Source: Siphonodentalium dalli (Eukaryota > Mollusca > Scaphopoda > Gadilida > Siphonodentaliidae). Taken from it: a stretch of 64,000 bases of DNA. Under the pieces are notes generated by a model that saw nothing but the letters and a program-made list of their open reading frames with translations, searched no databases and had not been told where the DNA came from. The DNA lies in the NCBI GenBank assembly GCA_032622095.1, contig CP136064.1, positions 194,153,948 to 194,217,947 on the forward strand, written 5' to 3'. Below are positions 16,924 to 64,000 of the stretch, piece after piece; position 1 is the stretch's first letter, and every line of letters starts with the position of its first letter. A program made the position numbers and the translations under genes.

Positions 16924-16964
<41 letters not shown>

Positions 16965-29862: not shown

Positions 29863-32800
29863 GTAAGTGCACTGATAAATTAATAATTTAGACTAATTTC
29901 ATATTTTTTCTGCAAATTTCTTTGCTTATTTCTTTTTACTCTCTCACTTTTGAAGATATTGGATTATATCTAACCAAGCCTTGAAATCGTGTGCCTGTCA
30001 TTTGCAGAATGTGATGCTAGCTCGCTGGGGACCTCATTCTGCTTACACCTCAGCAGAATGAGGTTCCCAGAGGGTGAATTGGTGATGCTAAATTCACCCT
30101 CTGGGGACGTCATTCTGCAAATGACAGGCACACTATTTCAAGGCTTGTATCTAACCATCATCTGCTCTATTGCTCCTTTTTGTATTCAGTATTTAAAGGG
30201 ATGGGCGGCCTTCATTGTAGGTTATAATTCAGAAATAACATTTATCATATTATGATAACTTCCTCAAGATTATACTAACGGTATAGCATAATTATGATTG
30301 AATGCGATATTATTCACAAAACATGCTTTGCGTCAGAAAAAACGCAGGTCGAGTGTTGTTCAGTTTCTCACAAAAAGCGCTGTGAATTGTTTATAAGCAG
30401 AGTCACGATATTGCATCATTTCCTTATTTAGAATCACGCGCTTTATATTTCGGTTGTAAAACCCCTAATTTGGTGCATCAAAACTTGCAACTCGCAATAC
30501 TATCATAGTAAATTCCTTATTTGATATGTATTACCATATATAGGTTAGGAGAAAATACTAACTGGATTAAAAAATATTCATCTCTTTGCAAGAACAATTA
30601 TATTATGTACACGTTTTCTGTCTGATCATTTCCCAATCATGAAGTAACGTGGATTAGCTGGATTTTTAACTGACAGCGGGTAGAATGGGTCAATTAAAAT
30701 AAGATTTGGTGCAATTTGAATGTGATTGTTAATGGCGCCAATAATTTTATCTTCGCCTTCCACGGTGGTAGGGAATATTTTCATTGGACGATCCAGTAGT
30801 TCCGAGTGTTTGCCTATAAACAAATGCTTCTGTAATGTTTTTGATGTTTGTTTATATAACAAAGCATACAAACTTAACAGTAACTTGCAATTTATGTGAT
30901 ATTTATGATTGGTATAAGAACAACATCTGTCTATTATGTAATATTCTTTCTGTTCATGGTGGTTATAGCGGATGTGACTATTTTAACAGCTATACCCACC
31001 GCGAAGGCCACCCGTATCTTTAATCCAAATAATTCAACATTCAAAATTTGAAACAAAATTCATGTCAGTAGATGAATATGGTATTGATGAGATACAACAT
31101 TCAGCTCTGTCTCTCCTGTGAATAACCACGCACTGTGAGAGTGCTTCTACTTTTAAAGATGCGATCTCTTTCTGATAACACTTCCTAGTTATGTATCTCC
31201 GAAAGCATATTGAACTTGAAACAAACAAAATTTATATCGCCGGTTCCAAGCAGTCACTCTTTCTGATCGAATCATATGCTTACCAGTTACAGTTATAAAA
31301 ATTTTGCAGGACTCTACCACATTGATTCACAAATTTTAGATCTGTCCATTCAACTACCGGTAAGCTTTTTATGAAATTGTCCGACCACATGTTTGTGAAA
31401 ACCATAAATGTAATAGTTATCCCCACATATAAATGATGTTGACCTCTGCTGAGCATTCAATATGATATGTCCTATGGACAGATGTCAATAATTGCTGTAT
31501 TGAGTTGATATATACATGTACAGATATGTACATGCTTGCTGTCTATATTAATCTTTGTATGTGTTCAATAATTCTGAAACCACCCATCATGTAGTTCTGA
31601 AAAAAAATCACTTCCATTGTTCTCATGCATATTTCACTATATTTATTCTGTATATACATGTATATATTTAATTTATAGGTGTGAAACATCAAAATATCAT
31701 TTGTGATTCATGCAAGACACAGGGAATTCAAGGCATGCGGTGGAAGTGCTCAAAATGTCATGATTTTGATCTGTGTACCATGTGTTATATGGCTGATAAA
31801 CATGACCTTAATCACTCCTTTCTTCGGCATGAGAATTCTGCGTCTAGAGGGTGAGTAATGTTGGCTTATTAAATTTTGCTACTCGAAAGAGTGTTCAGAT
31901 ATCCTCAAGCCTGCAAATAGTGTGCCTGTCATTTGGTCCCCAGAGGGTGAATTTTGTGATGCTATCCCACATGCATTAAGTTTTTAGCTCAACTTTACTT
32001 TGTAAAGTTTGAGCTATTGTCATGACTTTGTCGTCCGTCGTCCGTGTGCGCGTGTGTGCATAAGGCGTCAACAATAGAGGCTACAGGTCGTACCTTTGAT
32101 CGGATCATTATGAAATTTGTCATAGCTGTTGACATCAACATTTGTACCGGAATGATTCATTTTGGGGTCATTCGGAAAAAAAACATGGCCGCCAGCGGCC
32201 ATCTTAGATTTCAAAATTCAATCCATTAGCACGGGCTACAGGCCGTACTGTTCGTCTGATCGTCATGAAATTTGTCATGGATGTTAATATTGACATGTAG
32301 ATGGGAACGAGTAATTTTGGGGTCATTCGGCCAAAAAACATGGCTGTCGTCTTGGATTTTACTCTTTGCATGACTAAATCCTTTAGCACGGGCTACAGGT
32401 CGTACCTTTGGTCAGATCATCATAAAATTTGTCATGGATGTTAACAATGACATGTAGATGGGAACAAGTAATTTTGGGGTTATTCGGGCAAAAAACATGG
32501 CCGCCAGCAGCCATCTTGGATTTTACTCTTTGTATGACTAAATCCTTTAGCACGGGCTACAGGTCGTACCTTTAGTCTGATCATCATAAAATTTGTCATG
32601 GCTGTTGAAATTGGATTGTAGATGGGAACGAGTCATTTTGGGGTCATTCGGACAAAAAACATGGCGGCCATCTTGGATTTCAAAATTTAATCCATTAGCA
32701 CGGGCCACGTACAGGTCGTACTGTTCTTCTGATCATCATGAAATTTGTCATGGATGATAATATTGACATGTAGATGGGAATGAGTAATTTTGGGGTCATT

Positions 32801-35800
32801 CGGCCAAAAAACATGGCCGCCAGTAGCCATCTTGGATTTTACTCTTTGTATGACTAAATTCTTTAGCACGGGCTGCAGGTCGTACCTTTAGTCTGATCAT
32901 CATAAAATTTGTCATGTATATTAACAATGACATGTAGATGGGAACGACTCATTTTGGGGTCATTCGGCCGAAAACATGGCCGCCAGCAGCCATCTTGGAT
33001 TTTACTCCACATTCCTAATCGCTCCATTGACTGTAATACATTAAATTATTCCCTTTCCAAGTTGAGCTACAGTGTCATTGACACTTTCATTTCTCCTGCA
33101 GTAGGCAAGAAAAAATAAAACATCACTCCTGGATAAAAAAAACCAATGCACTATTTATTGTATAAACTTTGTTATCCTTTACTCACATTGCTTCAAAATT
33201 GCTTCAAGAAATTTTAAATTGACTAATTTGGTAGGAATTATGGTGGTGCATGTAGCTACCTCATATTTCAGTTGTGCTAACTGAGTGACATGTCCATTTT
33301 TGCCAAATCATTGTTTTAAATCATTGCATTTGATTTACTTATGTTCAACTATAAAAAAATTGTTTTTGAATTTTTAGGGTTAGAGTTCCGAAAAGAAGCA
33401 GCAGTTCCAAACACATGTATATGGGTATTTTTAATGGAGCACGAGTGGTTCGAGGTCCAGATTGGGATTGGGGAAATCAGGATGGTAAGAATCAGTGCAT
33501 TAACACAAAGGTCAAAGTTAGGGCCCGGCGAAGATTCGATTCGATTCGATATACTCCCGATGATTCGATTCGATATCATTCATCCGATTCGCCTCAAAAC
33601 GAATCTTAACAACATCAAATATAACGCGCAAAGATTGTGCCATTTTTAACGCAGTCATCGGAAAAAATCTCCATGAAACAGAGCAGTCTACTAGTACGGG
33701 CAATGCAGTTAATAAACCGGTGACTCAACCTACCGAGAGTTTAGTTGACTTTATGTTTGATGACGTTGAAGCTGCCCACGAGAGAGACAATGTACTGGAC
33801 CCTGGTGACAATTCATTATATGTACGGCTAACCAGGGAAATGGGGGTATACTCGCGTGTTATGTTATTAAAAAGGGATGACTCTCCACTGGAGTTTTGGA
33901 AATCGAACCAGTCGTCATTGCCTTTACTCGCTACAACTGCGAAGGATATACTCGTTATTCAAGCGACGAATTGTTCCAGTGAGAGTAAATTCAGTTGGAG
34001 GGAACATATTAACGGACCAAAGGCACAGTCTCTCCAACTTTAATGCGGAAACGTTAATCGGGCCCCCAACAACTCGAACTTACTCTTTCCGTCACTGGTA
34101 CAAACTGCAAAAGCCAGTGAAATTAAGAGTGAATAGTTTGGTCGCTTGAATACCAAGTATATACATGATTACATGTGTTAACTGCTATAAGTTCGCAGCT
34201 TTTGCGAGTAAATGCAGAGATGACTTTTTGAGTCTCGTTCGCTTTCCAAAACCCCAGTGAAAGCTAACCCTTCGTTGACTCATTACAAGATAGTGTTTCC
34301 AAAGTGACCATGTTTTAGTTTTTAATAACTGCCTTTATATTTCCTTTGATGAAATTCAGTTGCTTTGATGAAATTGCGACCGTTGACTTGACCGTTGACT
34401 CTAACTTCTAAGTATCGCTGACTAAATTTGATGAAATTGCTTTGATGAAATTCAGTTGCTGTTTTAAGTTTTTAATAACTGCGTTTATATTTCCTTTGAT
34501 GAAATTCAGTTGCTGTCAAAGTGTAGAACGATGAACATTGGCACACTTCATGTTGTATTATATTGACTGATTTTGCATGAATTAAACTATCCAGTTTATT
34601 TTCCCCGAGTCACAATATTATTCATTGTAACAACTGCATTCCCGAGTCCCGATGCCAGTTGTATAGCCAGTATGGCGCCGCACTGTATACCCAGCTGTGA
34701 TTGATGATGTGTGGCGTAGTTATATTATGAATCATTTACGATATTTTTTCCAGGAAGATAATCGCACATGGTGAAAACAAATCAACTAGTTAACGAATAG
34801 TTTGTAACTGTTATTAATAAAATCGATGTTTATTCACTATAAATTTGTCCCAGTAATTGAACTCAGGTTTTCTATTATTCGATTCGAAGATTCGATTCGA
34901 TATCATTCGGCTGATTCGATTCGAGATTCGATTCGAACGAAAAAAGGCCGATTCGCCGGGCCCTAGTCAAAGTACTGTCCTTTAACCCTTTCATGATGGG
35001 AGCTGCACTGTGCAACATTAAAGATTCTATGTCATGCATTCTTTTATATATATATAAGAGAATGCACTGGCTTACACGGTCAAGGTAAATATTGCTAGGC
35101 CAATGTATTCTCTTATATATATATATGAGGCTCCCTATGCCTCATATCTATGTAAGATTCAAGCCTTGAAATAGTGTGTCTGTCATTTGCAGAATGAGGT
35201 CCCCAGAGGGTGAATTTAGTGATGCTACCCTGCATAGCGGGCTAGCATCACCAAATTCACCCTCTGGGGACCTCATTCTGCAAAAGACAGACACACTATT
35301 TCAAGGCTTGTATATATGAGGCTCCCATCTATGTAAGATTCGCATATAAGAGAATGCAAATTTCAGGAAGCTTCAGTCATGGAAGGGTTAGTATGTCCCT
35401 GTTTGATTGGGCTTTTTACTGAACATTTTAGCAGAAATTTGAGAAAAGGGACTCCCCCCTACTAGTAGTTCAAATCGCTTGCAAAGTTGTGATATTGGGT
35501 AATAGCACTAGTTCTCTAATCAGCATTCCTGGGTGTAAACAAGAACCTGATCAGGTGGTTACTAGTACATGCTCCATCAAGTGCTTACTGTTAGTTGCTT
35601 CATGCTTGATAAAATCATTTGGTATACAGGTTATGGTTGTATACCATAGTAAGTAACAAAATATTCTTAAAGTGATGTGAAACACGGTAGGGTGATCAAA
35701 TTGAAATGGAGAATAATCTTGCTCAAAGTAGTATTTTTTACAAATATTATATCGAAATTGACAACAAACACCGCCATTCTTATATATTAATTAAATACAG

Positions 35801-41800: not shown

Positions 41801-44800
41801 ACAATATTTTTCTCGGAACAATGAAGGAGCTTTATTTTTATATGCCCGTTTTAAATGAATGGGATGTAATATGTTATTGATCTGTCCATCCATCTGTCCG
41901 TTGGGAGCATCTGTCCATCATTCCATCCATTCACTTTTTGTTTCCGGATGATAACTTGGATAGTCTCAACTGAATGGGATGAAAGTTGTTATGTGTGTTT
42001 ACTAGCACAAATACAGGTCAAGTTCTAATTGTGAGATCCCACCAAAATACGTCACCAATCTTCAGAAGTCATGATATCATACTATGGGTATACTTTAATG
42101 CCTGTTGGATTGTATGAAATCGATAGCACGTGTTTTTTCCATTTCCGAATATATTCCGCATATTGAGATAAGTCTGGAATTTTACACATTCCGACCGTTT
42201 TGGATCCAAGTTTTATTAAAATGTTTCTCAATTCTTGATGGTGTTAGGAAATGATCAACAGTACGGTATTTCCCCAGCCTCATTTATAAAATTATTAGAA
42301 AGACACGAAAAACATTTCCTATATTCGTGATATGTTTAGCATTCGTTATTAAACAGTCATGTCCCATTGGATAATCCCATTACATACGGTGAAGCGCTTA
42401 ATTATCTTTAAAATATGAAAAACAATAAATGCCCGGGAAATGACGGTTTCAGTGTAGAGTTTTACAAATTTTTTTGGACTGATGTGGGAGCCTACGTGGT
42501 CAGATCAATGAATTATGGTTTAAGTATAGGAAAGCTGTCGACTACACAAAGGCAGGGTATTGTCACACTGTTACCAAAAGATAACAAACCTAGACAATTT
42601 CTGAAAAATTGGAGACCGATCTCTCTCTTAAATGTAACATACAAAATACTTACTGGAGTGTTATCAAATAGATTGAAAAAGTTCTTACCTACATTAATAC
42701 ATCAAGATCAAACTGGATTTATAGCCGGTAGATATATTGGGGAAAACATAAGGCTTTTACATTTTACATTTTACATTTACAAAGAAAAACAAAATACCTG
42801 GACTTATGCTAATGATTGATTTTGAGAAGGCATTTGATTCGATTTCTTGGAAATTTATTATCGCTGTTTTGAAATATTTCAAGTTTAGTCAAACGTTCAT
42901 CAATTATATACAAACCCTTTATTGTGATTCATCGTCATGTATAAACATGAATGGTCAGATATCCAGATTTTTTAACTTAAGAGCGGGGGTGCTGACAAGG
43001 CGATCCTATATCCCCATATATATTTCTATTATGTGGTGAAATTCTAGGTATTATGGTGAGAAACTCTCAGACAGTTAATGGAATCAATGTTGGTAATAAA
43101 AATATACGAATATCTCAATACGCTGATGATACATCCATATTTTTGGACGGGTCACCCGAGTCACTGGAAGCAACCATGTATATCCTTGATAAATTTAAAC
43201 ACGTTTCAGAACTGAAAATTAATTACAATAAAACGCAGGCAGTTTGGATAGGTACCAAATCAGATTGCACAGAGACTATTTGTGACAGGTGGAAATTAAA
43301 ATGGAATCCGGAAACATTCAAAATATTGGGTATTGAATTTAATCACGATATTAACAGAATGATCGATATAAATTTCTCTAATGGATTAAATAAAATAAAA
43401 AACATACTTTCAACATGGGGTAGAAGAAACTTGACTGCACTAGGCAGAATAACTGTAGTAAAATCCCTAGCTATTTCAAAAATTGTACACTTATTCCTAG
43501 CATTACCAAACCCTCCAGCACAATTCATTAAAGAACTAAATAAAACTCTTTTTGGTTTTGTTTGGAAGAATGGTCCAGATAGAATTAGTAGGAAACAACT
43601 TATACAAGATTATACAAATGGTGGATGTGCAATGACTGATCTAAATGGATTTATGAACTCAATGAAAATATCATGGATTAAAAGATGTATAGTTCAAGAT
43701 ACATCATGGACTATCATTCTTGAAAATTCTGCCCCCATATTTAATACATGTTGGTACCTAATGACCCCATCTATTTTAAAGAAGCATGCTCAAGCTGTTG
43801 ATAATCCTTTCTGGAGAGATGTAATTAACGCATGGATGGTATACTGTAATAAATTATATCCTATAAGTCAGATAGACTTTAATACCCTACCATTGATTGG
43901 TTTTAATGCCACAGCCAAATTTGTAGAACCACGAATAAACATGTTTATGACCGAAAGGATAGTAACTATTTCAGATTTTAAAATCCCATCTGGGAGTTTC
44001 ATGTCATACAATGAGTTTACTTTAAAATATAAATCAAAATTGGATTTTGTAACATTTCATGGAATAGTAAAATTAATAAAAAAACTACGAAAAATCATTA
44101 AAGAAATGTGATAACAAAATGACTGTGGATTATCCATTTATTCCATTCCAAATAAAAACAAAATATTCTAAATACAACTAGCAAAAAAAATGTATGTAAG
44201 ATAATGATCCCATATGAAAATCAAAGCAAACAAATAGCTAAATGGGAGGATAAACTAAACAAAACATATAGCATGGAATGGTGGAAAGAAGTTTTTAAAT
44301 GTCCCTTTTACAATGTTACAGATACAAAACTTAAATGGTTTCAATATCGAATTAACACACATATACTATGTACAAATAAATTTTTGAAAATAATAGGCAT
44401 CCAAGATGAAGATACATGTACATTCTGTAAAAACAAAATCGAAACAATACTTCATATCTTCTGGGAATGTCATAAAAAAAATTTGGCGGACTGTAGAGAT
44501 GTGGGTATACAATCTAACAAGCCAAAGAATTAAACTAAATAATATAATAGCTATTTTTAGCAACACACCAGAGAAAAACCTTGAACCGTGGATACAATTT
44601 TTACTTCTATTTACCAGATACCATATATATAGGTCAAAATTAAATGAACACATACCAAATTATCTATGCTTGCAAAGAGAACTAAAGGCATACTACCTTG
44701 CTGAACGTATATGTTATTATAACCAAGGCCGATATAAACAATTCACAGAAAGATGGTCATACTTAAAATATTTAATTGAATAATCTATTATTCAGCCAAC

Positions 44801-47800
44801 AGTTATAATAATAACAAGGTTTAAAATGGAACTATTCCAACGAAATACATATCCAATCTGCCTGCAAACAAATTAGAACGTTGTTTTTCTTTATCTTATT
44901 AAGTCTTTGATAGAAAATTACATACATATGGTTAACATATATTACATACTTTCAAAGAAACAACACATTTCTTGATAATTTCAAGTTCAAGCTAGCCCAC
45001 TCCCCTCCCCTCCCCCCAAAGAAAAAAAAAACCCAGACAATATGAGACAATGATGCTTTAATTAATTTAGTCTAACAAGTTTATTGTGATAATGTATCCA
45101 TAATGTGTATTGTATAAATGAGTTTGTCTGAATAAAAATATATAAAAAAAAACTAAAAAAACAGTCATGTCCCCCTCAATAAATTTGACAAATGCGGCAC
45201 AAAAAAGTAAATGCGGTGGGCCTTAATAGTTTTCTCTAACGCTGTTGTTTGTGGTATGAAATTTTGTCATTACACTCCCCTACATTACTTAACCTTCCAG
45301 TTTGTTAAAATAAAAAGGAAATTATGGTTCCTTGACTGTCTACGTATATGGACATTCAGAATTTGATATTAAGTTATAGGCTGACTTATTACCAATATTG
45401 AACTTCTCAGTTGGTGGTTGCATTGGGTTAGATTTCCCCATAGCAGCTATAGGGGTCCAATTCCTCCAACCCATAACGGAAACCCTGCATTTTTGGAAAA
45501 GATGTTATTCATTGTAATACCATTTACAAAATGTTTAGCTTGCTTGCAAACCCTTCTAAGCAATGAAATACTGCTTAATTTCTTGGCTTTCAAACTCATT
45601 ATATTTTACTATTTCCTTTTGTCTTTTTACACGAACAGAATTATTTTTCTGTTCTCTTACTTTATATGAAGCATTAACTATGACTATCACATTTCAAGAA
45701 ATTGGCCACAAATATAGAAGAGAAGTCCTTGAAATGAGAGGTTTAAACTAAATTGAAAACTATATGCTTAACCCATTCTTTACTAAATACTCATTGATGA
45801 GTAGTTGCCTTAGGAAATGTTCAGATAATAAGTTTAATATGTCGTTTTGTTGAACTTATTATCTGATAATTTCCCACCAATGATCGTAATCCTTCTGCAC
45901 TTCTACTATCTTTTCATCTGTCAGTCATCTGATAATTTTTCCTGAACACTCCTCCAAATAAATAATAGACCTTTCCAATATATACTTATAACTGGGTGGG
46001 ATAATCCATTTAGTATAGTAAGGGTTAATGTAATTCAGATTCCCTGAGTACTCTGCTGGACCATTTTATGGAGCTCCAACCCATGGACACCGGGCCAGAC
46101 AGACTGGTACGCGAGGCAGCACAGGGAAACATGGATGTCGTCCAGGAAATCATTACTAAATACCCAGACAAAGTATGTCCTTAAATATTGTTACGTAGAC
46201 ATTGACTAATCCATCTTATTTTCCTTTTTAGCTTTATTATAATGTCAAAGTTATAGCCCAAAACAATTAATTCTGTGCATTACAAACAACTGATTTTTAT
46301 TCATTAGTTAGTTATTGTTCAACATAGTAGTACTTGGTCTTTTTAAATTTTAAATTGTCCATGCTTTCTGTCAATAAATATTCTATTCATTATCAAAGCA
46401 GATTTAATGTTTATTTATGAAAAATGTATCGAATTACTACTGTTTCTACCGAATATTTATTTTCAAACATAATCAGATGAGAATTTTATCATCAGTCACA
46501 TAATGAGAATCAGGTTTTCTGTTAACTATTTCTTATATTATGATGCTACCTCTTCAATTTCTGTGATTTTGTGACACATTTGTTCAATCAATTGGCAGGT
46601 TGACATGAGGAGTTCTGGGAAGACTGCTCTGCAAGTTTCTAGTCATCAAGGACACAAGAGTATTGTGCAGGTATTACTGTCTGCAGGGGCCAAACTTGAA
46701 ATAAAAGATGAAGATGGTGATACTGCACTTCATTACTCTGCGTTTGGGTGAGTCATGTTAACATTTTGGGCAAATTTGCAAATAAATTTATAAGTAAATA
46801 TAATATTTCTGTTTTATTTTAGAAACAATATTTATATCACTAAACTCTATGAAGGAATAAATTATTGGAGATAAACTAAGGGAGAAATAATGTTTTATGA
46901 ATTGGGTGATTTGACTATTGGTTGATTTTCACCAAATTTTAAGATTGAGCTAATAATGTTTTCCTGTTATACAGTCCAACTGAAAGTTGTGGCATGTTGC
47001 AGGTAAGCACACTAATATGTTTCAGGCCTAATCATGCTAGCGAATTAGTTTATCCCGAGGGTCCTGCAAATATTCAAGAATCAATATGATGTCGGCACCA
47101 GTGACCTGATTTGAGGTTGAAACTGATTCACAAGTTTTTAAATCCTGCTGAATTTGCTTCTTGATTTCAAAATTACACATTGGCAGTTCGCAAACTTCTG
47201 AGTAATATTTTTTGTTGATTATCACAATTTCCAACAAAAGGAAAGATAGAGTTAAATTGATACATGTAAGTAACCTCCAATTCTGGGAGTTTGTGAAGAT
47301 TCACAAAACACCAATCCTCCCTTAGTTTTTGGCTCTAATATCTCATTCCCTGATAGAAACTCCTACTTAATTTCTTCTTTCTCTGTCTTCAGTAACCAGC
47401 CAGACGTGATGGAACTGTTGATTGTAAATCATGCAAAAATAAATGCACTAAACAATGGAGGATGCAGCACACTTCATGTAGCTGTTAACAAGCAGCATAT
47501 GAACTGTGTTAAAGTACTGCTGAAATACAGGTGTAACGTCAATATACAGGTGAGTGTGCCAAAATACAGGTGTAACATAAATATTCAGGTGAGTGCTGAA
47601 ATACAGGTGTAATGTCAATATACAGGTGAGTGTGCCGAAATACAGGTGTAACATAAATATTCAGGTGAGTGCTGAAATACAGGTGTTACGTCAATATTAT
47701 ATACAGGTGAGCGTGCCAAAATACAGGTGTTACATAAATATTCAGGTGAGTGCTGAATAGTGTTGAAATGACTAGGGTATTTCGTAGTTGACTAGTCGGT

Positions 47801-50800
47801 GGCCCTTAATCAACTACTAATCGACTAGTTGACACCTACTGTATATAGAACAATCAAATTCCCACACAGGATTATCAAAGTATTTTCTTAGACATCGAGG
47901 ATCTGCCAATTTCAGAGCTGTTTGTCATCATAAAAATTTATTAAAACATGCATATTCATCATTAAATTTATCGATGTTGACAGCCTATAGTGACAGGTAA
48001 GTATCATGAACATCACTCATATCATAATATTGGGGTAAACTTCAGCGTTGGAAGTTATGTTCGCATAAATACTATAGAGAAACTTCGAAAAAGCTGTATG
48101 CAACAAGTTTATTGACTTCCGGCTCATGCGCATTCTATTTTTCGCCCAATGATATCACAACTGTAACACTTTATTCAATGTTCAGCGAGCTATTCTGCTA
48201 TGCAATTTAACAGTTGGCCTACTTAGGGGTATGACAATGATTCAGTGACTTGATTAGAAATCTGACTGTTATATTGGCGTAAGCCAGCATAATATAAAGA
48301 TATACCAACACCCAGACAGAAATGAAGTGAACACACGGTCACGTTGGAATTGGTTCTATCTTGTATCAGTCACCGCGTCATCAAAACAACATCTATTGCA
48401 ATGTCGGATGTAGAATATCTTAGATCATAGTGCCGCACTTTGAATATGTGAATGTGTACAGTAACTCTGCTGATGCAACTTAGCTGAACAATGATTGTTC
48501 CAATCAGACATCATTCTGGAGAATAATAGACCATAACAGGTCGCTATCCCTCACGTGGTGACTGAATATCTAGATCAGCAACATGTTTTTGTAATACCGT
48601 AAATGCAAGCAGGCAGTCATATTTGAGTTCCATCACAATCAGTTATGATTTATATACACGAACGACGACAAATAGGAAGTATACAGTATGCATCAATGAT
48701 TGTTACCAATGAAACATTTATACCTTTCTGGGAAATATGGTGATTAGTCGACTCGGAGATTGTGAATCGATTATTGCCGAAATTCTATCAACTAATCGTT
48801 TCAACACTAGTGCTGAATACAGGTGTATCATCAATATACAGGTGAGTGCTGAAATACAGGTGAAACATAGATAATCTGGTGAGTGCTGAAATACAGGTGT
48901 AAAGTAAATATAGAGGTGAGTGTGCTGACCAATATACAGGTGAATGTCATAAATCTCCTCCATGCACTATGTTTATAATATGTGAAAAAATCTTATCCTA
49001 GAATTAAAATTTTATAATAAACTCGACTGAATATGTGATATTATCTGAAACCTTGGAATGCACTCAAAATTGTCATTGTCTCAGATAGGAAAGGCCATAA
49101 GAATATGTCGAAATAAAAATATTAATTAAAAAAAATATTATTTTAAGCCTACCTACAGACCCTTATTTTTTATTACCTCTAACCCAAACCAGACATTTCA
49201 TTTTCTTTGGCATTAGAGTTAAGTAAGGATGTTGTCGCATGACTGACCTTGCTAGGGAAGGCTATTCATTTTGTCATTTGGAATTTGTACTGGTATTGCA
49301 AAAAAGCAATGTACCATAATTAATTATGTTAGCTACTGGGAAAAATGCTGTGAGTCTCTTGATGAAAAATAGTTTGCATATTGACCATTTTAGGATGCAT
49401 ATGGTGATACTGCACTGCATGATGCAATTGGAAAGGAAAATGATGATATAATTGATATGTTAATTACACACAATGGCATAGACTTCACACTGCGAAACAA
49501 ACGAGGCTTCAATGTTCTTCACCATGCAGCACTGAAGGGTAATAATATGTGAGTATCACTGTGACAATGTTACATATTGAGTAGTCCAAATAAAAATACT
49601 GTGTTCTCAGGAACCTACATCATAACTCAAAGATGGCCTCATAAAAAAATATCTATTTACCAAAAAATCACCTGAATGTTTTTGAGAATTCAAAACTGCA
49701 TCTCCCTTCAATCCACAATTAAGAAATTTAGATGGTTTAGGTTACTTGATAGGAGTGAACTGATTCAAATGAGTAACATTCAATGGACCTTGGAAGATAT
49801 TGATCTTTCACAAGTATAATTCTAATACAATTATTCCAATAAATAATATTTAAATTGACTAATAAACACTCCTTTCTCAGCTCAACTTGCAAGTTTAAGC
49901 TATTGCCATGGGTTGGCGTCTGTTGTGCGTTTGCTTATATCCGTCAACAATTTCCTTTGGCACACCCTACAGGCAACACTCCTCATCCGATCATCACCAA
50001 ACTTCATATGGATCTTTGGGGTGACCTCTAGATGGTAGCTATAAACTTTTTTCGGAATTTCGTTGCAAATATTAATTTTTTGCACAAAATTAATGGGACA
50101 TCTGCAATTTCAAAGACTAATGATTATTAACTACTATTTGGGACATCCACAAAGTGATATTGGTGAATAGAATTAATGTATAATACCTTCCCTTGTGTCA
50201 AGTGAATCAAGAATTTATTGTTTCAATATTGTCAGACTTTTCTATTATTTTCACAGTTATTTGGGAGCTTTGTATTAAAGGTACTCAATGCGATCAGACG
50301 CTCCTAAATTACCATTTCTTTGGCTTCAGGGGTAAACAATATTTGATTTGAGTCGAGGAACCCACCCATCACAGCTTAGAGTGATAAGATGTCATTTTTT
50401 GAAGTTTGTTATTTCTCGAGAAGTGTAATAATATGTGGCCCAGAATCACATGGTCAAACGGAGGATCTTGGTCAAAATTGTGGATAAAGATGGATAACTC
50501 TAAAATCAAGTGGTAATACGGTCAAATTTTGTGATACTTAATGATAATACGGCCATATTTTGTTGAACAAAATGTTGATAAACAACAAGTTTTTGGAAAT
50601 TTGACAGTGGTTAGCATTATTTTGTTGCGATAAATCAATTCTGATAACTAAAGCATATTTTGAATAAATGTTGTTGTTGTATCCTGATGGTATCCTGATT
50701 GTATCCTGAATGTATCCTGAACATACTGTTCTAAACTATTGCAGAGCTACAGAGAAAATCCTCATTCGTTGTCGGCAAATTGTTGATATCAAGAAAGATG

Positions 50801-53800
50801 ATGGTTTCTCGGCCCTGCATCTTGCAGCATTAAACGGCCACAAGGATGTCAGCAACACTTTACTGACTGTTGTAAGTATATTACCATAGGGTGTCATCGA
50901 TTTTAAGGATTTCAGGTACTTAGAGGAAGCTGAAGTGGCATTTGTTCTGACAAAGTTTGCACATCTCCGAGATGGAGAATAGCTCTGATAAGCACAATTG
51001 AAGTGTTTCAAGACCTTCATGGTTGGTAGAGTGGAAAAGCACACAAGTTTGTTAAATCATTTTTACCAATAACATGAAAAATTAGAACAAATTTGTTCTT
51101 ATTTTCATTATCAATAATCCTCCAGTGACAGGATTCTCCATGTTGAAAACATTGTTTGTAAACATCTACTGTAACAGAGCAATCTATATTGTCAATAACT
51201 GCAATGAAAGATAACTCTAAAATGCAGACGTTGATTATGATCAGAAACAAGGTGCTGCCTTTTTCCTCATTACTCATCATAGAGATTAATACAAAAAATT
51301 TCGACCTGGAATTGAAAAATAACATTTTGAATCATTATTACAGGGTCAAGCAGACAAGGAGATAGCAAACAATCGGCAACAAACCCCATTGCTGCTAGCT
51401 GTGTCACAAGGACACACAGGCATTATTGAACTGCTGGTCAGTAAACATGCTGATGTGAATGTCCGTGATGAGGATGGTGACACATGTCTCCATCTGGCTC
51501 TGATGCGACAGACCGTGGCGACGGAGAAAGAGAGCTCGCCCATGCTTGATGCTGTAAGGACCATTTGTTCAACAGTACCAACCCATTTACACAATAATCC
51601 TTTCAAATTCTTTGTATCCTGTTTCTGAATTAAGTATCATATTTAGGTTGTTTTGAGTTATATTTTATGCATACGGGTATATGGTAACACTTTCATATGT
51701 ATTCAGGGTAGTTACAGCAACATACAAAAGCAAATATAGAAAAAAAAGATAGGTCCAGTTCCTATTTTTATGTTTACCCATACCATAGTATGGTAAACAT
51801 TGTGTCGTTGTCCGGATTGACCACTCGTCGTTCGTCCGTCTGTCTGTCTGTCCTTAGACACTTTACGAGTAATGCGATAACTCAAATATTTTCTATCCGA
51901 TTGGAACCAAATTTTTTATATGGGTTTCTCAGCCCAAAATACAGATAGAGTTCAAATTTGGTTTTGATCCGAGTTTTTGTTACAGAGTTATGGCCCTTTT
52001 TCAACTTAGAATTCACACATTCTGCCATAACTCAAACATTTTTTATCTGATTTGAACCAAATTTGGTATGTGAGTTTCACAGCCCAAAATACAGATCGAG
52101 TTAGAATATGGGTTTGATCCGATTAATTTTAAAGGAGTTATGGGGGGGCATGACCCTTTTTTGGAGAAATAAAAATTTTAAAAAGAAATTCTATTTTTTT
52201 TTTAGATTTAGCTCCTTAATAAATTTAGCATAAACAAATATTAAATTTTGATTGAACTTTAATAACAATAAAAAAAAAATTTAAATAATAAAAATAAATT
52301 GACACTTTCATTTATTTTAGTTTTATACGATTAATTAGGTGTGATATGCTGTTTTGAAAATATGAAGATTTTATTGCAATAGTTTCATGTAATATAATGA
52401 TATCAATAAATTACCATGTGATCATCCAACATCCAGAGTATATGAGAGGACATTTTATAGATGTTGTCATTCCAAGTGAAATCTGTTATGAAATGAGTGA
52501 TGCCATATGATACAGAGATTTGGTGGGTCAAGATAAACAACACTGGTGGCTGGCCGTTTGTTTATTCTAACTGTCAAATTGATTAATGGCAGCATAAGAC
52601 TGGTGTTTCTCCTATTCTTGAAATTTCATTACAGGGTGAGATAAGGGCCCCCCTCGCCTATATAAGTGTCTTCTAAATTCCATTAATTTGCTTCAAAAAT
52701 AATTAACCCTTTCCAAGGTTTCCATAGACACATGCTATAATGTACATGGACTCTTCCTCATATCTATTGGGTATCTTTGCACACTATTCACTTCTATCAA
52801 TTTTGGTATTGACTGATTAATTGATTTTTGAAAAATATATTAACCCTTCAGACACGTGCTTTCAATTTGAAATTAAAATAACAGCTGATAGCCAATATGA
52901 TTTATCTATGCAATGGGAAACAGGCAGATAAATATACATGACTATTGTAAGTGATGACTTGTTTTGAAAATCAATATGGTAGATGTTAGTATTTCCAGGA
53001 ACCTTATTTTCCCATTTGTTCATATTTTCATGGTTGATTGAATTTTAGGGGCCACAGAGCACTTAGAAGATTAACATTGAAGGTTGTGGCTTTTAGTGTC
53101 CAAGCTACTTGTAAAACATTGTAATGTGTGAAACCATTTAATTGAGGGCTAACTTACTTTCTTTTATATGAACGATTTAGTGGTCATAGGGGCCAGCATC
53201 CTCATCATATTATGTCTGTATAACATTATATAGATAATACTTTTGAATTGTATAAACTACATATATTTTTGAAAACCATACACCCCTGTTATGAAACACT
53301 TAATCTTATTTAATACACAGGTCAGATCTGATCTTATATCTGTCCATGTTTGATAAACAAATAACTGGGGAGAATGGGGGAAGGGTAATTAAAGTACCAT
53401 TTAAATATGAGATGGAATCACCTACATGTATGTCGATCTAAGCAGTCTGGCTTGTCAACAAATTATAATTTCTCTTTAGAAGTGAATAAATTTTGAATAT
53501 CTGGCATGTCAAAAGTGGCAACGATAGGGATTTATCACTTTTGCTTCCAATGAGTTTTCTTAAACTCCTAAACATGTCCTCTGAAATCACTAAACCATTG
53601 GATCTCGCAGTGAGAGGTCATTGGGTGAATAGGGACAGAGTTAAGAGATTTAAAACTACTCCTCTCCACCCCAAATACTTTAACCCTTTCTTAAGATAAA
53701 TTATTTGAGCTTTTGATTTCAAGTTGGGTACTGATATATGGATTAATTCCTGTGATCATATCTTAGTCGCTATCGCCAAGGTATGGGTTAAACATCTGCC

Positions 53801-56800
53801 GATCGTAATCGGCCTCTCGTTGTATTAATGCCCCTACTTTCTCGTTTCCTTAAATGTATGCGTCTGATTGATTAAGGCACTTGCATACGCTTGGTATAGA
53901 CAATCTATCAGCTGAGGGAAGTGTTATCTCCCATATTACAATTCACACTAAAACTTTAAGAAGTTGGGCAACTTCAACATTGCCCAACATTATGACATAA
54001 TTTTTTAAACACGACAATAGTTACCATACATCAAAAACAAAATTAATGAATAAGACTGATCAGTGAAACTGATAATTTAGTTGTGGATAAAGGAATCTGT
54101 TCCGTAACTATTCTCTATTAACATTTCTTCAGCTTCATACAAACTCTAATATTACATGACCTCAATCACGAGAGCTTAAAATGGGACAATTATAGTATTT
54201 GTTTAAATTTCGAGTTAGTCATCGGAGACACCAAATTGGTTGGGAAGTTTAGGTGCACCACATCAGAATTTCTATCACTCTGAGTGTATTGATGACAAAA
54301 GATGCTCTAGTGTCATTATAAATATGTCAATTATTACAACAGAAGTATAGTTTAATATTTTACGGATGTATTGTCTTATTTTTGTGTCATTTATCTTTAG
54401 AAACAGAGATCTAAGTGTGTGTATTTTATGAACTTCCGATTGGTCATTGTCAAAATTTCTACCAATATGTTTTGGCCTGTCATCTTTATTCAGCGATCTC
54501 AGAACGAAAATAATATTTTTTTGGGCAATACAAATTAGATAGCAGCAAATAAAGTTTTCTTGGCATAATTATAAGCAATCATGAAATTATACCAAGGATG
54601 TTTTTCGGCATCTGACACAGTCACACTTCTATATGCCCAGAGAAGCATCGAAAACGACTTTCAACACCACATTAGATTTAATAATATTTTGGAATATTTT
54701 CTGAGTACCAGTAATATAACTTTTATATAAATTCTGCTTTTAGATTCGGTCACAGCTGGGGTTATCTGAGCATGAGGACCAGACGGGTGCAGCAATAGCA
54801 TGTTTTCTTGCCCAACAAGGAGCCAGTCTACGGGCAAGAAACCTGCAGGGTAAAAATCCACTGGACCTAATAGCTGATACGAGGGTAGAAGAGTTTGTTA
54901 AACAATTCGCTCAAAACCGGTAAGTATGTACTTAACACTAGATAGCAACTAGAGTCTTCTGTTGACCAAATATTGAACTCAGTCAGTTATATTATTACCA
55001 TTTCACAAACCATATAGTCTCCTTCCTGCGATGTAAACCAGCTAGTGAAATCAGTTGGGGACAATGCTGGTTTTATGTCAAAGTCCCGTGTATATACGGC
55101 AGGATTTTTTTTGTCTGTCTTAATTGATTTTACCTTACAAATCAATTCATGATGCTCTCCAGGGTCCAAGCTAGGGGTTGAAAACAGGAGAAGTGACTTC
55201 TCCCTCTGGAGATTTTAGGGAGACTTCAGCCCAAAATAGGGAGAAGTGGAGAGATTTAAGAAAAACATACTATTTTTCAAATATCGGTTTATTTATAACA
55301 TCAATAAAAAGATAATATAATGAGAGAAAACATGGTTAGCCAAAATAAAATATAGCGCAAGTATAGGATCCGTATAGATAGATAACATAAAAGTATTTCT
55401 TATGATAACATAAAAGTAATTCTTAAATTTATAACTTTTATTTAAAAATAAAAAATGTTGACTTTTAATATATGAAGAAATTAATGGTTATTATTAAAAT
55501 TTGAAATTTTTGGAAATGACTTTTGGTCACTGCTGTAATGCGGTTGTCCATTATGATAAACAATAAGGTCTATTAAAGGAGTTGTAAAAGCTTTCTAAAG
55601 CTTTCATTAATGAATACCAAGGTGGATTGTATGAATAGTGATGATAATCCGATTAAAGCAATAAACTTGGGAGCATCTCACTTTGCTGACGGCTATTGTT
55701 TCCGGGGGTACCTGCACGAGGTGGCAATAATCCCTTACTTCAATCATTTGCCGCTTATAGTCCATTCCTCTTTTCTTTTGGTGTTTTAATGGTTTGTCCT
55801 CTCTTTTTGTATGTTTTTAATGATTTGTCGATTTGGGAACGAGGGTTTTGGAACTTTTGGTGCTGATTCAATGCTGATGTCAGGAAATAATCTATGTCAT
55901 GTTTTATTTATTTATTGATGCAAAATAATTAATAAAATACATACAAGGAGATAACAAACATATAACAAATACACGACAATACTTTAACAAAAAGCTCAAT
56001 GGCGAACTAATTTAGCGATTGAATCTAAGTATTCTACAACGTCGATCTCGTTTTCCCTGAATATTCTCTTGAAATGTCTAAGAGACGCGTTGACCGCCCG
56101 ATATTTTCTTCTCTGTGGTTGAACTCTGCCGCCACCAGTCAGTTGAAGTATCGTCGATTATGTATAGGCTTGTTCTTTTTTAATGTGGTCGATCATGTCA
56201 AATATATTTGGTTTTGAAGCTGCTATATAACCTTGAAGTTTTCTGTGCCACCCTTGCCACCCTTTCTTGTCGAAGGTACTGTCGCAGAACCAGGTGTCGG
56301 CGTCTTGAAGAAATTGCAGATTGCTGGCTGTCGCGAATATCATGATGTCGTTGTCTCTTTCTGACGATGGCAGGAAAACTTCGCCGGCGGTGTTGTTGAG
56401 TATCGTTCTGGTATCTGTATCGAGATCGGTTCTCACTTTTGGCAATTTTGGCTTCGTTTTGGAGCGGGAGCGGTATAATGCAGATCGCATGCTGTAAAAG
56501 GTCGGAACTCGGCTGATGACTACCGGGTCTACTTCATCTGTTCTGAGGCTGCCGATTTCCTCTTGGTATATAGACGGCACGGGTCTAGAGCCACTGCGGA
56601 CAGAAAATGCATGTGTCGTACCTGGTCAGAATAGGCTAGATGGTTGTGTTGACTCATTGAAGAATTAACTATCTCGTTCTTTGTGTTGATGGTGGCACCA
56701 CGGCCATTCTTACAACACACCCAGTGGACATTCTCGGATCGACGTAATTTGATGTGGAATTTGAAGTCGTTGAAGACCAGTTGTTTGCCTCCTCGATTGA

Positions 56801-59800
56801 TGGCGATGAAGAATACATTTACTTGAGAACTTGCCATAATGAAGATAGAACATTGAATATGATCAAATTTGGAGAGACATGGGGTTTTTATAGCTGAATA
56901 CGATCGCTCAATACGAATAACAGTTTACTACTATTTCACTGAGTGAACATGAAAATCGCTCATCTGATGACGACTCATGTGAAACTCGTTTAGCGGCATG
57001 CTAAAACAACATTGCAAATGGGAGCCGGGAAAACTGTTATTTAATTAATACAGACTATAGGCGCGACGATCACACCTTGCCGGCGATATTTTTGCAGGCT
57101 CGTCGGCAAAGTGAGAATAAGCCATAAACTTAACAAGTTGGATAGCAGTGTTACAATAGTGATTACTGTGTTCTTAACAAAGACCAGTGGAGCTTATAAT
57201 ATACACGAACAGGTTATTTATATATCTGCATTGTAACTAAGTAGATGCAATTAATTTACAACGGTTGACAGACATGATAACTCTCATGATTTTGGCGTGA
57301 GATTCACGATTTCACACCCCTGGTCGTAAGAGCACGTGGCCAGCCGGTAGATTGATATCATTTGTAATTTGCAAACACACACTTTTGACACAAAGTAATC
57401 CTTATTAAATGAGTTTGGATAGTATTAGTTTCTTATGCAGATCTTTGTTTTAACTAAGAACATTAAATTAGGTACTTTCAATGCTCATTCAAAGCTCTAT
57501 TTTTAATAGTAAACAAACACATGCTATTGTTTACATAATAAATCTACAACTCACAAACGTTAAAAAGTTGGATTGGGAAACGGAGTCTGACACAAACTAC
57601 TTTTGTAAAATTAAATATTCATGGATATTTTTAGAGTTTAAATGCATAGACATTAAAAAGACAGCATGTTTACTCAGGCTACTGCATGTGTAGTGGTGAC
57701 CATGCATGGCTATACTATTTATTAATTATGAATGACCCGGTGGAACAAAGTGACGTTTAGTCTTTTAAGACGTACTTGCAGCTCATCATAAACTTCGTTT
57801 CAAAGCGCAATTTGCCATTTCCAAAAGCACTCAATATGATTAGAATATGTGGATGCAGTACACAATGTATTATGTATAATTAAAAATGCCTCGTTTTAAG
57901 TTTTAAGACTTTAATTTTTTTGTAAAACACTTGATTCTCAGGCATCGCCTCATTGAAAAAAATGGCCTGCATTGGACCATTTTATTTCACCGATGTTGTT
58001 AACCGTAACACGGAAATAGGAAACTGTCACATGGAAATTAGTTATGTTTCAAATATCGAATAGGAGCTAAATACAATGGTGTATGTGTGGGTATTCAACA
58101 AAAGACCAGAGGCAATGATTCCCCCAATTCACCACAGGCTGTCCAAACCCCCAAGTTTATTGGTCAAAAGTATTTTGATAAAAGTACAATCGAAAAGGTA
58201 TAAAAAACAAATTCTGAACGCAAACCGGAGCGCTATACAGTTTGACAAGCAGTGTTTATTGTTTATATGATAGTTTTTGAAGTTTTATTGTCTATCATCC
58301 ATTGCCGTACATATATAGTTTCTATTTAGTCAGCAGAATAAGTCAATCAAGACTTTCTACAATAGTTTGGAAGATCACTTTATCTTTTCGGTTCAACTAT
58401 ATTTACGTTCTGTATTTTTATATGAATATATGTAGTTCTGTGTTAAAAATGCTTGTGCCGATAAAATTAATATAAAATATGTTTATCCCAATAAAGGTTA
58501 TAAAAGGTGAACAAATAATAATAGACCAGTCAATTCATAATGTTGACAATGATATTATATCATTCCAGGTAATCCCTATATGATGTATGGGAAGTACAAT
58601 GTCATAATTTGTCATTCTTTATATCAGATTAAATTAGTTTATATCCATTACAAAGTTCTCCCTACATTTTCTGGACCTGGGAAGGTATAATAACCCATTC
58701 TTACTATGGGCAGAAAAAAATAAAAATAAAACGATCGCTCCCTCATTGATTTTCAAAAAAAAATTGCCTTATGTTTTTATTTTAATTGTACTAGTAAGTG
58801 GTCCTATATTACTTATTGGTTAAACATTTCTTGCACTTGACGTCTCACGATGTATATGTAATTTCCAATTTATAAACTACCGGGCATACATGCATGACAG
58901 ATTGATTCAATCGACGACCACATGGCCATGTTTCCATTTACTGCATGATGGTCAATTCTTGAGGTCACACGAGTTCATATTTAAAAAACATTATGTAAAC
59001 ATTGTGATCAAATATATATTCCATATTAAATCACCACTTTCAGTTGACATGTCTTCCATGGAATAAACCACTTTACTGTCACAAATGTGACATTTTATTA
59101 CAATAATTTTGGTATTTTAGGTATATATTGTCTATACACAGGACTTTGAATTAAAACTTGGACTAAGTTTACCATGGTTTGCAGAGGTCATTGCCAAGAA
59201 CTTATTTGATTATGTGCAATAAAAAGAGTATTAGATCATGGAATCTGAAGTTGACCCCTCCCCCCTGAGGCTGTTAAAAATAAATACCATCATCATTAGT
59301 GATTTGTTTATTGACACTTTGATGGGCGAATCTGGCTTTTTATCTTATTTTCCAAGAATTATAGAAATTACAAGGTTTATAGACAATTTTATGGAATAAT
59401 TTTCAAAGCAATCTATATCTATATTCAAATACGTATTATCTATTACATCCTCAACAGAAACTTATTTAATTCTAATATGGATAAATGGAAGATAATTTTT
59501 TAACTCTTTGAAAAGTTTGGGTGAATTTACAAATTAATTTTTCCGCTAAAGGAGCCTTTCACACTGAACTATATGGATATATGTCCTGCTTTGTAAACCA
59601 CAGTAGGAAAGGGGTTAACTTTTTGGTCGCCTCCCGACGTTTATTGTGCTTGCCCAGATTAGTCACACATGAACTGTCCCAATATAACCGGCTGTACGCG
59701 GTGGGACAGTTTTATTCCTACTGCAAAGCCAACAAGTTCTAAGGGAGTATCTTTCTGAATTTTGAGTTTCACCACAACTCAACAAATTCAATTTATCGAT

Positions 59801-61357: not shown

Positions 61358-62133
61358 GTAATATTCTTTTCTATTTTGCAAGTAATAGGCCACTCTTATC
61401 TTTCCTAGTCAGATGTTGCTCCTCATTCTCAACCAAAACATGACAAAGGCAGTCCTTCGATTTTGAAAAACACAGGTGCACGTTTTATTTTGCACCTGAT
61501 TTTGGATCCAGGTGCACAATATTGCTTTGGTGCACCTAACTGGAAATATATGAAATATCTGATGCATGTGCATGTAAACATGTATATAATACACTAAAAT
61601 AACATTTTAATAAAATAAAATTTCGTTCAAAATAAGAGAGTTCATTATTGGTTTACTTCATCAACAAAAAGTTCCTTCCTGCGATCGTTTTGTTCACCGC
61701 CGACTCAAGCGGATATATTCCCTGGCCGACTCCTAAGTGGGATCGCATTGTTAATAATAAGTCATTATTGCGAATTGTTAATCTATATTATTTCCTGTTT
61801 CATACTGACTGGTGTCTGTTTGATTGTGACTCGGAAACTGTCACCACGCACTTACAAGTATTACGCGACAACGTCGTAATATAATTGATTGCTTTGGCAA
61901 TGTTGTCTCTTTGATTCCATTGATGATCGCTTTGATTGTCATGACACACATGCATTGAACAGTATGCACGTACCAATACGGGTTAAAAAAGACACTCCAG
62001 TGTATATATAACCTTTGATGCTATGACTTCCACGACGATCTTTGTTATCCCAACCCTTATTGTTCTGCATTATATTAGTTAATCGTTGAGTAAACTTAAC
62101 CAAGATCGTGGAGCGTGCAACTTTTCAATTCAG

Positions 62134-62972
62134 GGACCAGCCTAGAGGGTGACTTGGGAGATATCTTCTCCCTACAATGTGCCACTTCTCCCTAATTTTG
62201 TCCAAGAGAGAAGTGACCTCTCTTATGTACCAGTACAGTAAAACCTCTCTAAACCGAACACCCTTCGGACCGGCCCTTCTGTTCGGTTTAGAGAGGTGTT
62301 CGGTTTACAGAAAATGGCAAAACCATCTGAATATATTGCCGCTGTCAGTAAGAGTTATCAAGACCCGAACATCTCATGACTGATTACTTAAACTTTATTC
62401 AATAAACTACAAAATAAAACATAAATTGCAATAGATAAACATGCTATAATAAGAAATAAATGTATGTATAGATACCCCAGGAAACACGGAAATGATAAAT
62501 TTTACTGTGATTCGCAGTTTTTGGACGGTAGATTTCAACTCTGAGCTATCGTTTTCGCGACGGCTCATTAATTGTGATAAGTTGATTTAATAAGACTTAT
62601 GGTAACAACCGTCCTGTACTTTTAGCGAATTATTGTTTAGTTTGGACAATTGTTGTAAAAACAAAGACTCCATTTCATTGTAGACTCCATTGTAGAGGGT
62701 CTGTTTTGGAGAGGTTTCACTGTATACATATTTCAAAACAACATATTTGAAGTATATTCACTGATGATAATTGTGTACTTACTCATTATAATGCTATTAT
62801 GAATGGGCTCTTGTATTGCATAACCTGTATTGGATCACACAAAGGTGATGTTAGAGAGGAAATAAAATTTCAGCATTTATGACTTCTCCGTGATAACAGC
62901 CCATTTCTCACTAATAATCTAATAGGAAGAAATGACTTCTCCCAATTTGAATTCTCAAGTAGGTCCCTGTTT
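62134..62972. mobile_element. Middle layer of triple nest
   Basis: Ends CAGGGACCAGCCT and complement-like AGTAGGTCCCTG, with 'acttctccct'-type words near both ends. These resemble the ends of the element at 55162-58690. Interrupted by the pogo-like element. Confidence 0.62.
62236..62722. mobile_element. Pogo/Tigger-like MITE (inner layer)
   Basis: 487 bp, ends CAGTAAAACCTCTCTAAAC / GTTTTGGAGAGGTTTCACTG with TA on both sides (62234-62235, 62723-62724). CAGTnnAACCTCTCT termini plus TA are typical of pogo/Tigger elements. No transposase. Confidence 0.82.
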
Positions 62973-63618
62973 CATTTCCAAGCGTGCGATGGCATGCAAG
63001 AGCAATTGTGCGCCTCAAAATCGAAGGACTGCAAAGATAGTACAAATTTAAGATAAATGATGCATTATGTACGATAGGATTGTGTTTTTATCACTTCAAT
63101 GTAAATTAAGGTATTATTTCTTCTTCTTTTTTTGTGTAATCATGAATTTAGCGGAAAAGTTAAGAAATCAGATTTTCAACAGTACTTATTTTCTTGAAAT
63201 TTGGTAGAGATTCACCAGCATAGGAATGGGTGCACTTGTGATTGTTAGTTTGGCCTAGCACTTTTTTGCAGAGTTGTCACCCTTTTCAATTGAGTTAGGG
63301 ATTTGGTAATGTCCTTTTTATATTAATTTATCAGTAAAATCTTTTCTTAACAAAGATAAATTAACATTGAAATCTGTTCATTTGCAAATTTCAGGTTGAT
63401 CATTTATCTCCTTTTTCAGTTTTTGACATTTTCGACCTGAATTGATTTGCTGTGGATGCTTATGAAAAATATGAATATGTCGGCAGGGCCACTTTAAAAA
63501 ATCGGACAATAATCTATCAGATTGAATCTCTTATATCAGTGGAAATTTATAGAGCATTTTTTGAATTAAAATTAATTAGTCTGATAGCACTTTGATTATT
63601 GAGTGTAAACTCCCATTC

Positions 63619-63868
63619 AGTAACCCTTTCTATACCGTACTAAACTCATTGATGAGTAGTTATCCCATTGGAAATGTTCAGATTATAAGTTCAACAAACG
63701 ATCACAACTTATTATCTAAATATTTCCCTCAATCAATAGAGCTCCTTCTGTACTTTTATTTATATGTAATCTACTGTTATCACATTAACATCCCTCCAAA
63801 TCATTCATAGACCAATCCAATATACACGTTTATAACTGAGTGGGAGAATCCATTTAGTATAGAAAGGT
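63619..63868. mobile_element. TTAA foldback MITE, right-edge copy
   Basis: Starts 'taaccctttctataccgt' (left TTAA decayed to GTAA) and ends 'tttagtatagaaagg' followed by TTTAA. Same core as 45772-46024, including 'aaactcattgatgagtagtt' and 'acttattatct'. Confidence 0.75.
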
Positions 63869-64000
63869 TTAAGGGATAGTACAATCTATTGTTTTATATG
63901 AATATTCAAATCACATTAGCATTGGATTCATTTACAAATATTCAATGGATAAGCTTGGTTTATTAGCTGAATATCTATTGAAATGCATTATCAGTTTCAA

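Follow-up and report, generated by a model that had tools for sequence, protein, structure and literature searches.

A minisatellite built from an exon end and its splice donor in a mind-bomb gene of Siphonodentalium dalli

What becomes of splicing when the end of an exon is multiplied together with its own donor site? The question is raised by a mind-bomb type E3 ligase gene that lies on the + strand of a 64-kb stretch of Siphonodentalium dalli contig CP136064.1 (hereafter the window; all positions are counted within it), where the last bases of an ankyrin exon and the adjoining CAG/GTGAGT donor are repeated in tandem into the following intron. It had been proposed from inspection of the letters that the number of these copies could influence which isoform is made, or how much of the transcript is lost to decay. 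We think it likely that the locus is an exon-intron-boundary minisatellite at which the first donor is used and the copies lie near-silent in the intron.

The array and the exon from which it grew

The array spans 47518-48944 (predicted as 47524-48945) and consists of nine units of 36–42 bp followed by a 24-bp tenth; with an insertion in unit 7 set aside, the successive lengths are 37, 39, 37, 39, 42, 39, 36, 37, 37 and 24 bp (Table 1). Tandem Repeats Finder (TRF) describes the left part, 47518-47757, with a period of 76, 3.1 copies, 92% matches and a score of 400, and also with a period of 39 and a score of 282, while the right part, 48809-48922, is reported with a period of 37 and a score of 151. 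The highest score among 100 dinucleotide shuffles of 47200-49500 was 54, so that 282 was never reached; chance is excluded for the array itself. The units run head-to-tail within the size range of a minisatellite (about 10–100 bp), and the first of them joins the real exon end (47518-47549) to the GTGAG of that exon's own donor, as in a variable number of tandem repeats (VNTR) seated on an exon boundary. The exact sequence CAGGTGAGT, which contains the CAG/GTGAGT donor, is present in six of the ten units, and the remaining four carry CAGGTGAGC, CTGGTGAGT, GAGGTGAGT and CAGGTGAAT. The TRF results, the shuffles and the make-up of the units bear out the original prediction of an array built from an exon end and a splice donor, and its count of at least nine units stands. 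Several details change: the repeated exonic part measures 32 rather than 26 coding bases, the lower limit of unit size is 36 and not 37 bp, the short tenth unit is added, and a previously unmentioned element breaks up the array. The exon ends at base 47549; the positions given for donors 1 and 2, 47550 and 47589, are those at which their introns begin.

The exon peptides of the gene (n = 16) are collinear from 29640 to 61347. Pfam searches with seven exon fragments, one of which contained a single mistyped residue, returned MIB_HERC2, ZZ, MIB_HERC2, the mind-bomb SH3 repeat, ankyrin (in two forms) and RING, in that order along the exons, and the ankyrin part matches the solved MIB1 chain 8v0e. 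MIB2 has two C-terminal RINGs and MIB1 has three. A text pattern run over the forward frames of 51501-64000 gave one RING-like match, at 61222, and the gene may extend past the window. The domain order upholds the earlier label mib2 at the level of the mind-bomb family; mib2 over mib1 is not proven, the matched structure being named MIB1 and the RING-like exon in 51501-64000 being single. The exon at the head of the array is flanked by introns of 645 and 1,844 nt. In the first of these, a 28-nt stretch (46975-47002) bounded by AG and CAG/GTAAGC could be a small, frame-shifting exon.

Table 1. Coordinates of the array units, the flanking ankyrin exons and the inserted element (numbering of the window).
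Feature	Position	Strand	Description
Mind-bomb ankyrin exon (exon 11 of the original prediction)	47393..47549	+	157 nt, putative ancestral form ending at donor 1; acceptor TTCTTTCTCTGTCTTCAG, open frame, in-frame joins on both sides, Pfam Ank
Unit 1	47518..47554	+	32 nt of the real exon end and the first five intron bases, GTGAG; donor 1 CAG/GTGAGT, last exon base 47549
Unit 2	47555..47593	+	39 bp; donor 2, last exon base 47588
Unit 3	47594..47630	+	37 bp; donor 3 at 47625; in-frame TAA 47610-47612
Unit 4	47631..47669	+	39 bp; donor at 47664
Unit 5	47670..47711	+	42 bp; donor CAG/GTGAGC at 47706
Unit 6	47712..47750	+	39 bp; donor at 47745
hAT-like element	47758..48809	.	1,052 bp, splits unit 7; terminal inverted repeats of 18 nt, 89%
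Array remainder	48810..48944	+	Right duplication copy, remaining bases of unit 7 up to 48846, unit 8 (48847-48883), unit 9 (48884-48920), 24-bp tenth (48921-48944); donor sites at 48841, 48878, 48915 and 48939
Next mind-bomb ankyrin exon	49394..49548	+	Acceptor assumed for all donors

Units two apart are more alike than neighbours. The matches are 36/37 between units 1 and 3, 38/39 between 2 and 4, 35/42 between 3 and 5, and 36/39 between 4 and 6, compared with only 31–32 matches over 39–44 columns between neighbours among units 1–6; the latest event was therefore probably the copying of two units together, about 76 bp. This paired part, in which units 1–6 form three similar pairs, includes the exon end. 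Units beyond the insertion are more diverged, with 29–31 matches of 37–42 in the comparisons made among units 5–9 (the pair 5–6 left out) and 33/42 between units 5 and 7. A history that would account for this pattern begins with the duplication of a 37-bp piece, made up of the last 32 coding bases of the ankyrin exon and the first five bases of its donor. The copies would then have diverged, the 37 + 39-bp pair would have been copied again to give the three similar pairs, and a hAT-like element would have landed in unit 7. Since the unit ends in CAG/GTGAG, every copy would have brought a donor with it.

hAT elements generate an 8-bp target duplication and have short terminal inverted repeats. 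The insertion in unit 7 has inverted arms of 18 nt and is flanked by GTGCTGAA at 47750-47757 and 48810-48817. Because the array contains six copies of these eight bases (the others at 47593, 47669, 48846 and 48883), the target duplication is weaker evidence than it would be elsewhere; the assignment, which fits a hAT-type element, is carried by the terminal repeats that end exactly at GTGCTGAA. No listed open reading frame of at least 85 aa lies inside the element, no search for a transposase having been made, and it holds a CAG/GTAAGT donor of its own at 47996. A second copy of the terminal repeat (41 bp, 83%) is present on the minus strand at 18664-18704, where it probably terminates a further hAT-like element.

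Reading frames and donor choice

As had been predicted, use of donor 2 adds 39 nt, or 13 in-frame codons; reading continues unbroken into the following exon, and the extended exon would be 196 nt long. Of the later donor sites nine were tested, including one within the hAT-like element, and in every case the added stretch contains the TAA at 47610-47612, in agreement with the prediction of a stop from the third unit onward. Comparison with MIB1 points to the shorter form as the older. When a 66-residue query covering the junction was aligned to 8v0e, NIQ-DAYGD lay opposite SLQ-DSEGD with the junction ungapped, the one gap occurring further on. A longer query scored 195.3 bits without the 13 residues (query 10-187, chain 24-200) and 168.8 bits with them (10-200, 24-200). 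Because MIB1 aligns without a gap at this junction and the insert costs 26.5 bits, the form that ends at donor 1 and has no insert looks ancestral. The Pfam Ank score falls with the insert, from 103.3 to 98.7 bits.

Donor strength was scored with a position matrix, and pairing was computed with the U1 5′ end. The scores cover 12 of the 13 listed donors (that of exon e8 was left out, and the donors of e3, e4 and e6 are unassigned), and among these donor 1 is the strongest, at 8.51 against 6.42 for the next. Sites of at least 8.5 bits number six in the 380 array bases and none in the rest of 29-61 kb once 47.4-49.4 kb is excluded, a count that is descriptive only, the threshold having been set just under the site's own 8.51. 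The U1 duplex is slightly weaker at donor 2 (−13.4) than at donor 1 (−14.6).

The best external guide to a choice of this kind comes from human data. Five minigenes, each with flanking introns of 365 nt and a pair of identical CAG/guaagu donors, were spliced exclusively at the upstream site, and in human donor pairs of near-equal strength the upstream site wins in 60% (PMC9225289). These constructs resemble the array in placing identical donors before one acceptor, between long flanking introns, although they were engineered and are of human sequence. Because the identical-donor minigenes used the upstream donor exclusively, the copies in the array are predicted to be mostly silent, and we expect donor 1 to dominate, a prediction carried over from human data to another animal. 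The long flanking introns also suggest that the exon is probably defined from its own acceptor to donor 1. The copies would remain intronic and be used seldom or never. An occasional switch to donor 2 would yield a 13-residue insert between ankyrin repeats, and an occasional switch to the later donors would yield a stop and, probably, decay of the transcript. We infer from these comparisons that donor 1 is the site chosen and that the array is nearly neutral.

A number of observations weigh against this expectation. The donors of units 2, 3, 4, 6 and 7 are identical to donor 1 at all nine bases, and the minigenes offered two donors where the array offers ten (PMC9225289). Before strength matching, about 60% of competing human pairs favour the downstream site (PMC9225289), the intron-proximal donor of DOK7 is favoured by SRSF1 (PMC5585400), and where a 68-bp duplication repeats the intron 7/exon 8 junction of CBS, splicing takes the more distal of the two copies (PMC2630376). 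The possible exon at 46975-47002 would make the 645-nt upstream intron shorter. In the ankyrin part, the Pfam Ank_2 score rises with the insert, from 105.1 to 112.1 bits. Finally, over the nine units compared (the short tenth left out), the donor columns have a mean of 0.25 minor letters against 0.89 over the 28 other columns, 17 of those being invariant.

This last difference raises the idea that selection has kept the donors, which is without clear support: the donor columns are below average in variation, yet not below the invariant AATACAGGTG block. In 8-column windows over the same nine units, the AATACAGGTG block has no minor letters and the donor block, CAGGTGAG, has two. Concealment of the copies by RNA structure was rejected, the unpaired probability being 0.002–0.016 at six donors and 0.018 as the median of the region, with no contrast in favour of donor 1. 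CAG/GTGAGT looks like a joined acceptor-donor site, which prompted consideration of recursive splicing or intron gain within the array. This was judged unlikely, since 7–9 of the 17 bases before seven array CAGs are pyrimidines, compared with 10–16 of 17 at six acceptors of the gene, the margin being small at one site. When the 16 arrays of the window (merged from 19 TRF rows, with the two halves of the donor array counted separately) were placed at random, at least one of the 19 listed exon edges was covered in 43% of 20,000 trials, and an array on an exon edge is therefore unremarkable in itself. Exact-pattern scans of viral_contigs and genome_contigs for relatives of the array gave 0 matches.

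Known boundary repeats and alternative readings

The closest counterpart is the VNTR of the human CBS gene, located at exon 13-intron 13 (PMC1395315). It is a 31-bp repeat written as c.1444_1467+7(16_21), which by coordinates comprises 24 exonic and 7 intronic bases, and its alleles have 16, 17, 18, 19 or 21 units, with single-base differences between units (PMC2630376). Each copy of the mind-bomb array likewise repeats an exon end and its donor, and by this analogy the array is a boundary minisatellite of the kind already known from CBS, here in another gene. Its novelty is weakened, since the CBS VNTR has the same make-up by coordinates. The two differ in that the CBS repeat is polymorphic in people and has units that are all 31 bp, whereas the full units of the array are 36–42 bp, lie in a mind-bomb gene, are split by a hAT-like element and are known here from one sequence.

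Other systems are more distant. In a potato RdRp gene a tandem duplication gave rise to an intron, and there too the duplicated piece spans an exon-intron boundary and bears splice signals; however, a single duplication on the acceptor side made the new intron, while the mind-bomb array multiplies the donor side (PMC4974935). Exon 2 of Schistosoma SmPoMuc also consists of tandem exonic repeats with splice sites and is variable in copy number, but its unit is a whole 27-bp exon plus introns, of about 1 kb (PMC2576457). Intronic tandem repeats associated with splicing include the 38-bp repeat in intron 6 of TERT, the ABCA7 VNTR and CeRep25B of C. elegans (PMC4039745). In the portions of these accounts available to us no unit is described as containing the exon's own donor, and no exon junction is within 1 kb of the TERT repeat.

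Against this background, appreciable use of donor 2 would turn the 13 extra residues between two ankyrin repeats into a real isoform. The 39 nt keep the frame and extend the exon to only 196 nt, donor 2 equals donor 1 at all nine bases, and the insert raises the Ank_2 score slightly; yet a frame-keeping length is expected about once in three by chance, the identical-donor minigenes used the upstream site only (PMC9225289), the U1 duplex is slightly weaker at donor 2, and MIB1 has no insert at the junction. We regard such an isoform as unlikely. The number of units might instead determine the share of transcripts spliced at the nonsense donors; array length would then tune mind-bomb dose through decay, with length alleles between individuals. 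Nine of the 11 tested donor sites include the stop, copying in two-unit steps suggests a fairly recent change in length, and the CBS VNTR is polymorphic, being paired with raised homocysteine in one review table (PMC1395315). This is quite improbable, however, as the donors are without clear sign of selection and extra downstream copies should matter little under exon definition.

Both effects are combined in a bolder scenario, in which splicing of a Notch-pathway ubiquitin ligase would be adjusted by a length-variable array of strong donors: donor 2 would give an isoform with an ankyrin insert, further donors would lead to nonsense decay, and unequal crossing-over would shift dose and isoform ratio between individuals. 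We hold this to be very doubtful, and the originally predicted tuning of isoform choice or decay by copy number to be possible but unsupported. Assemblies often mis-size tandem repeats, and the array might be an artefact in which repeats were mis-sized or mis-joined. The units differ among themselves, however, and the interrupting element has matched terminal repeats with its edges on the same eight array bases; the copy number could still be wrong, but an artefactual array is highly improbable. The reading we prefer remains a boundary minisatellite spliced at donor 1.

Other features of the window and implications

Further repeats and frames are found in the window. The intron preceding the ankyrin exons contains frames (42412-44783) resembling the reverse transcriptase of a long interspersed element, including YADDT. 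Another mind-bomb intron holds a large tandem array at 32079-33007 (TRF periods 164 and 316, scores 1067 and 1139). Two neighbouring frames at 59970-60344 specify closely similar peptides, perhaps through local duplication, and there are homopolymers of 39 G (16925-16963) and 28 C (8183-8210).

If nearly all splicing uses donor 1, the locus would provide a natural test of how the spliceosome bypasses further copies of a strong donor, five of them exact and four weaker. Otherwise, the length of the array would become a heritable control on a conserved ubiquitin ligase. In both cases the array suggests that human CBS is not alone in having a minisatellite seeded at a splice donor.

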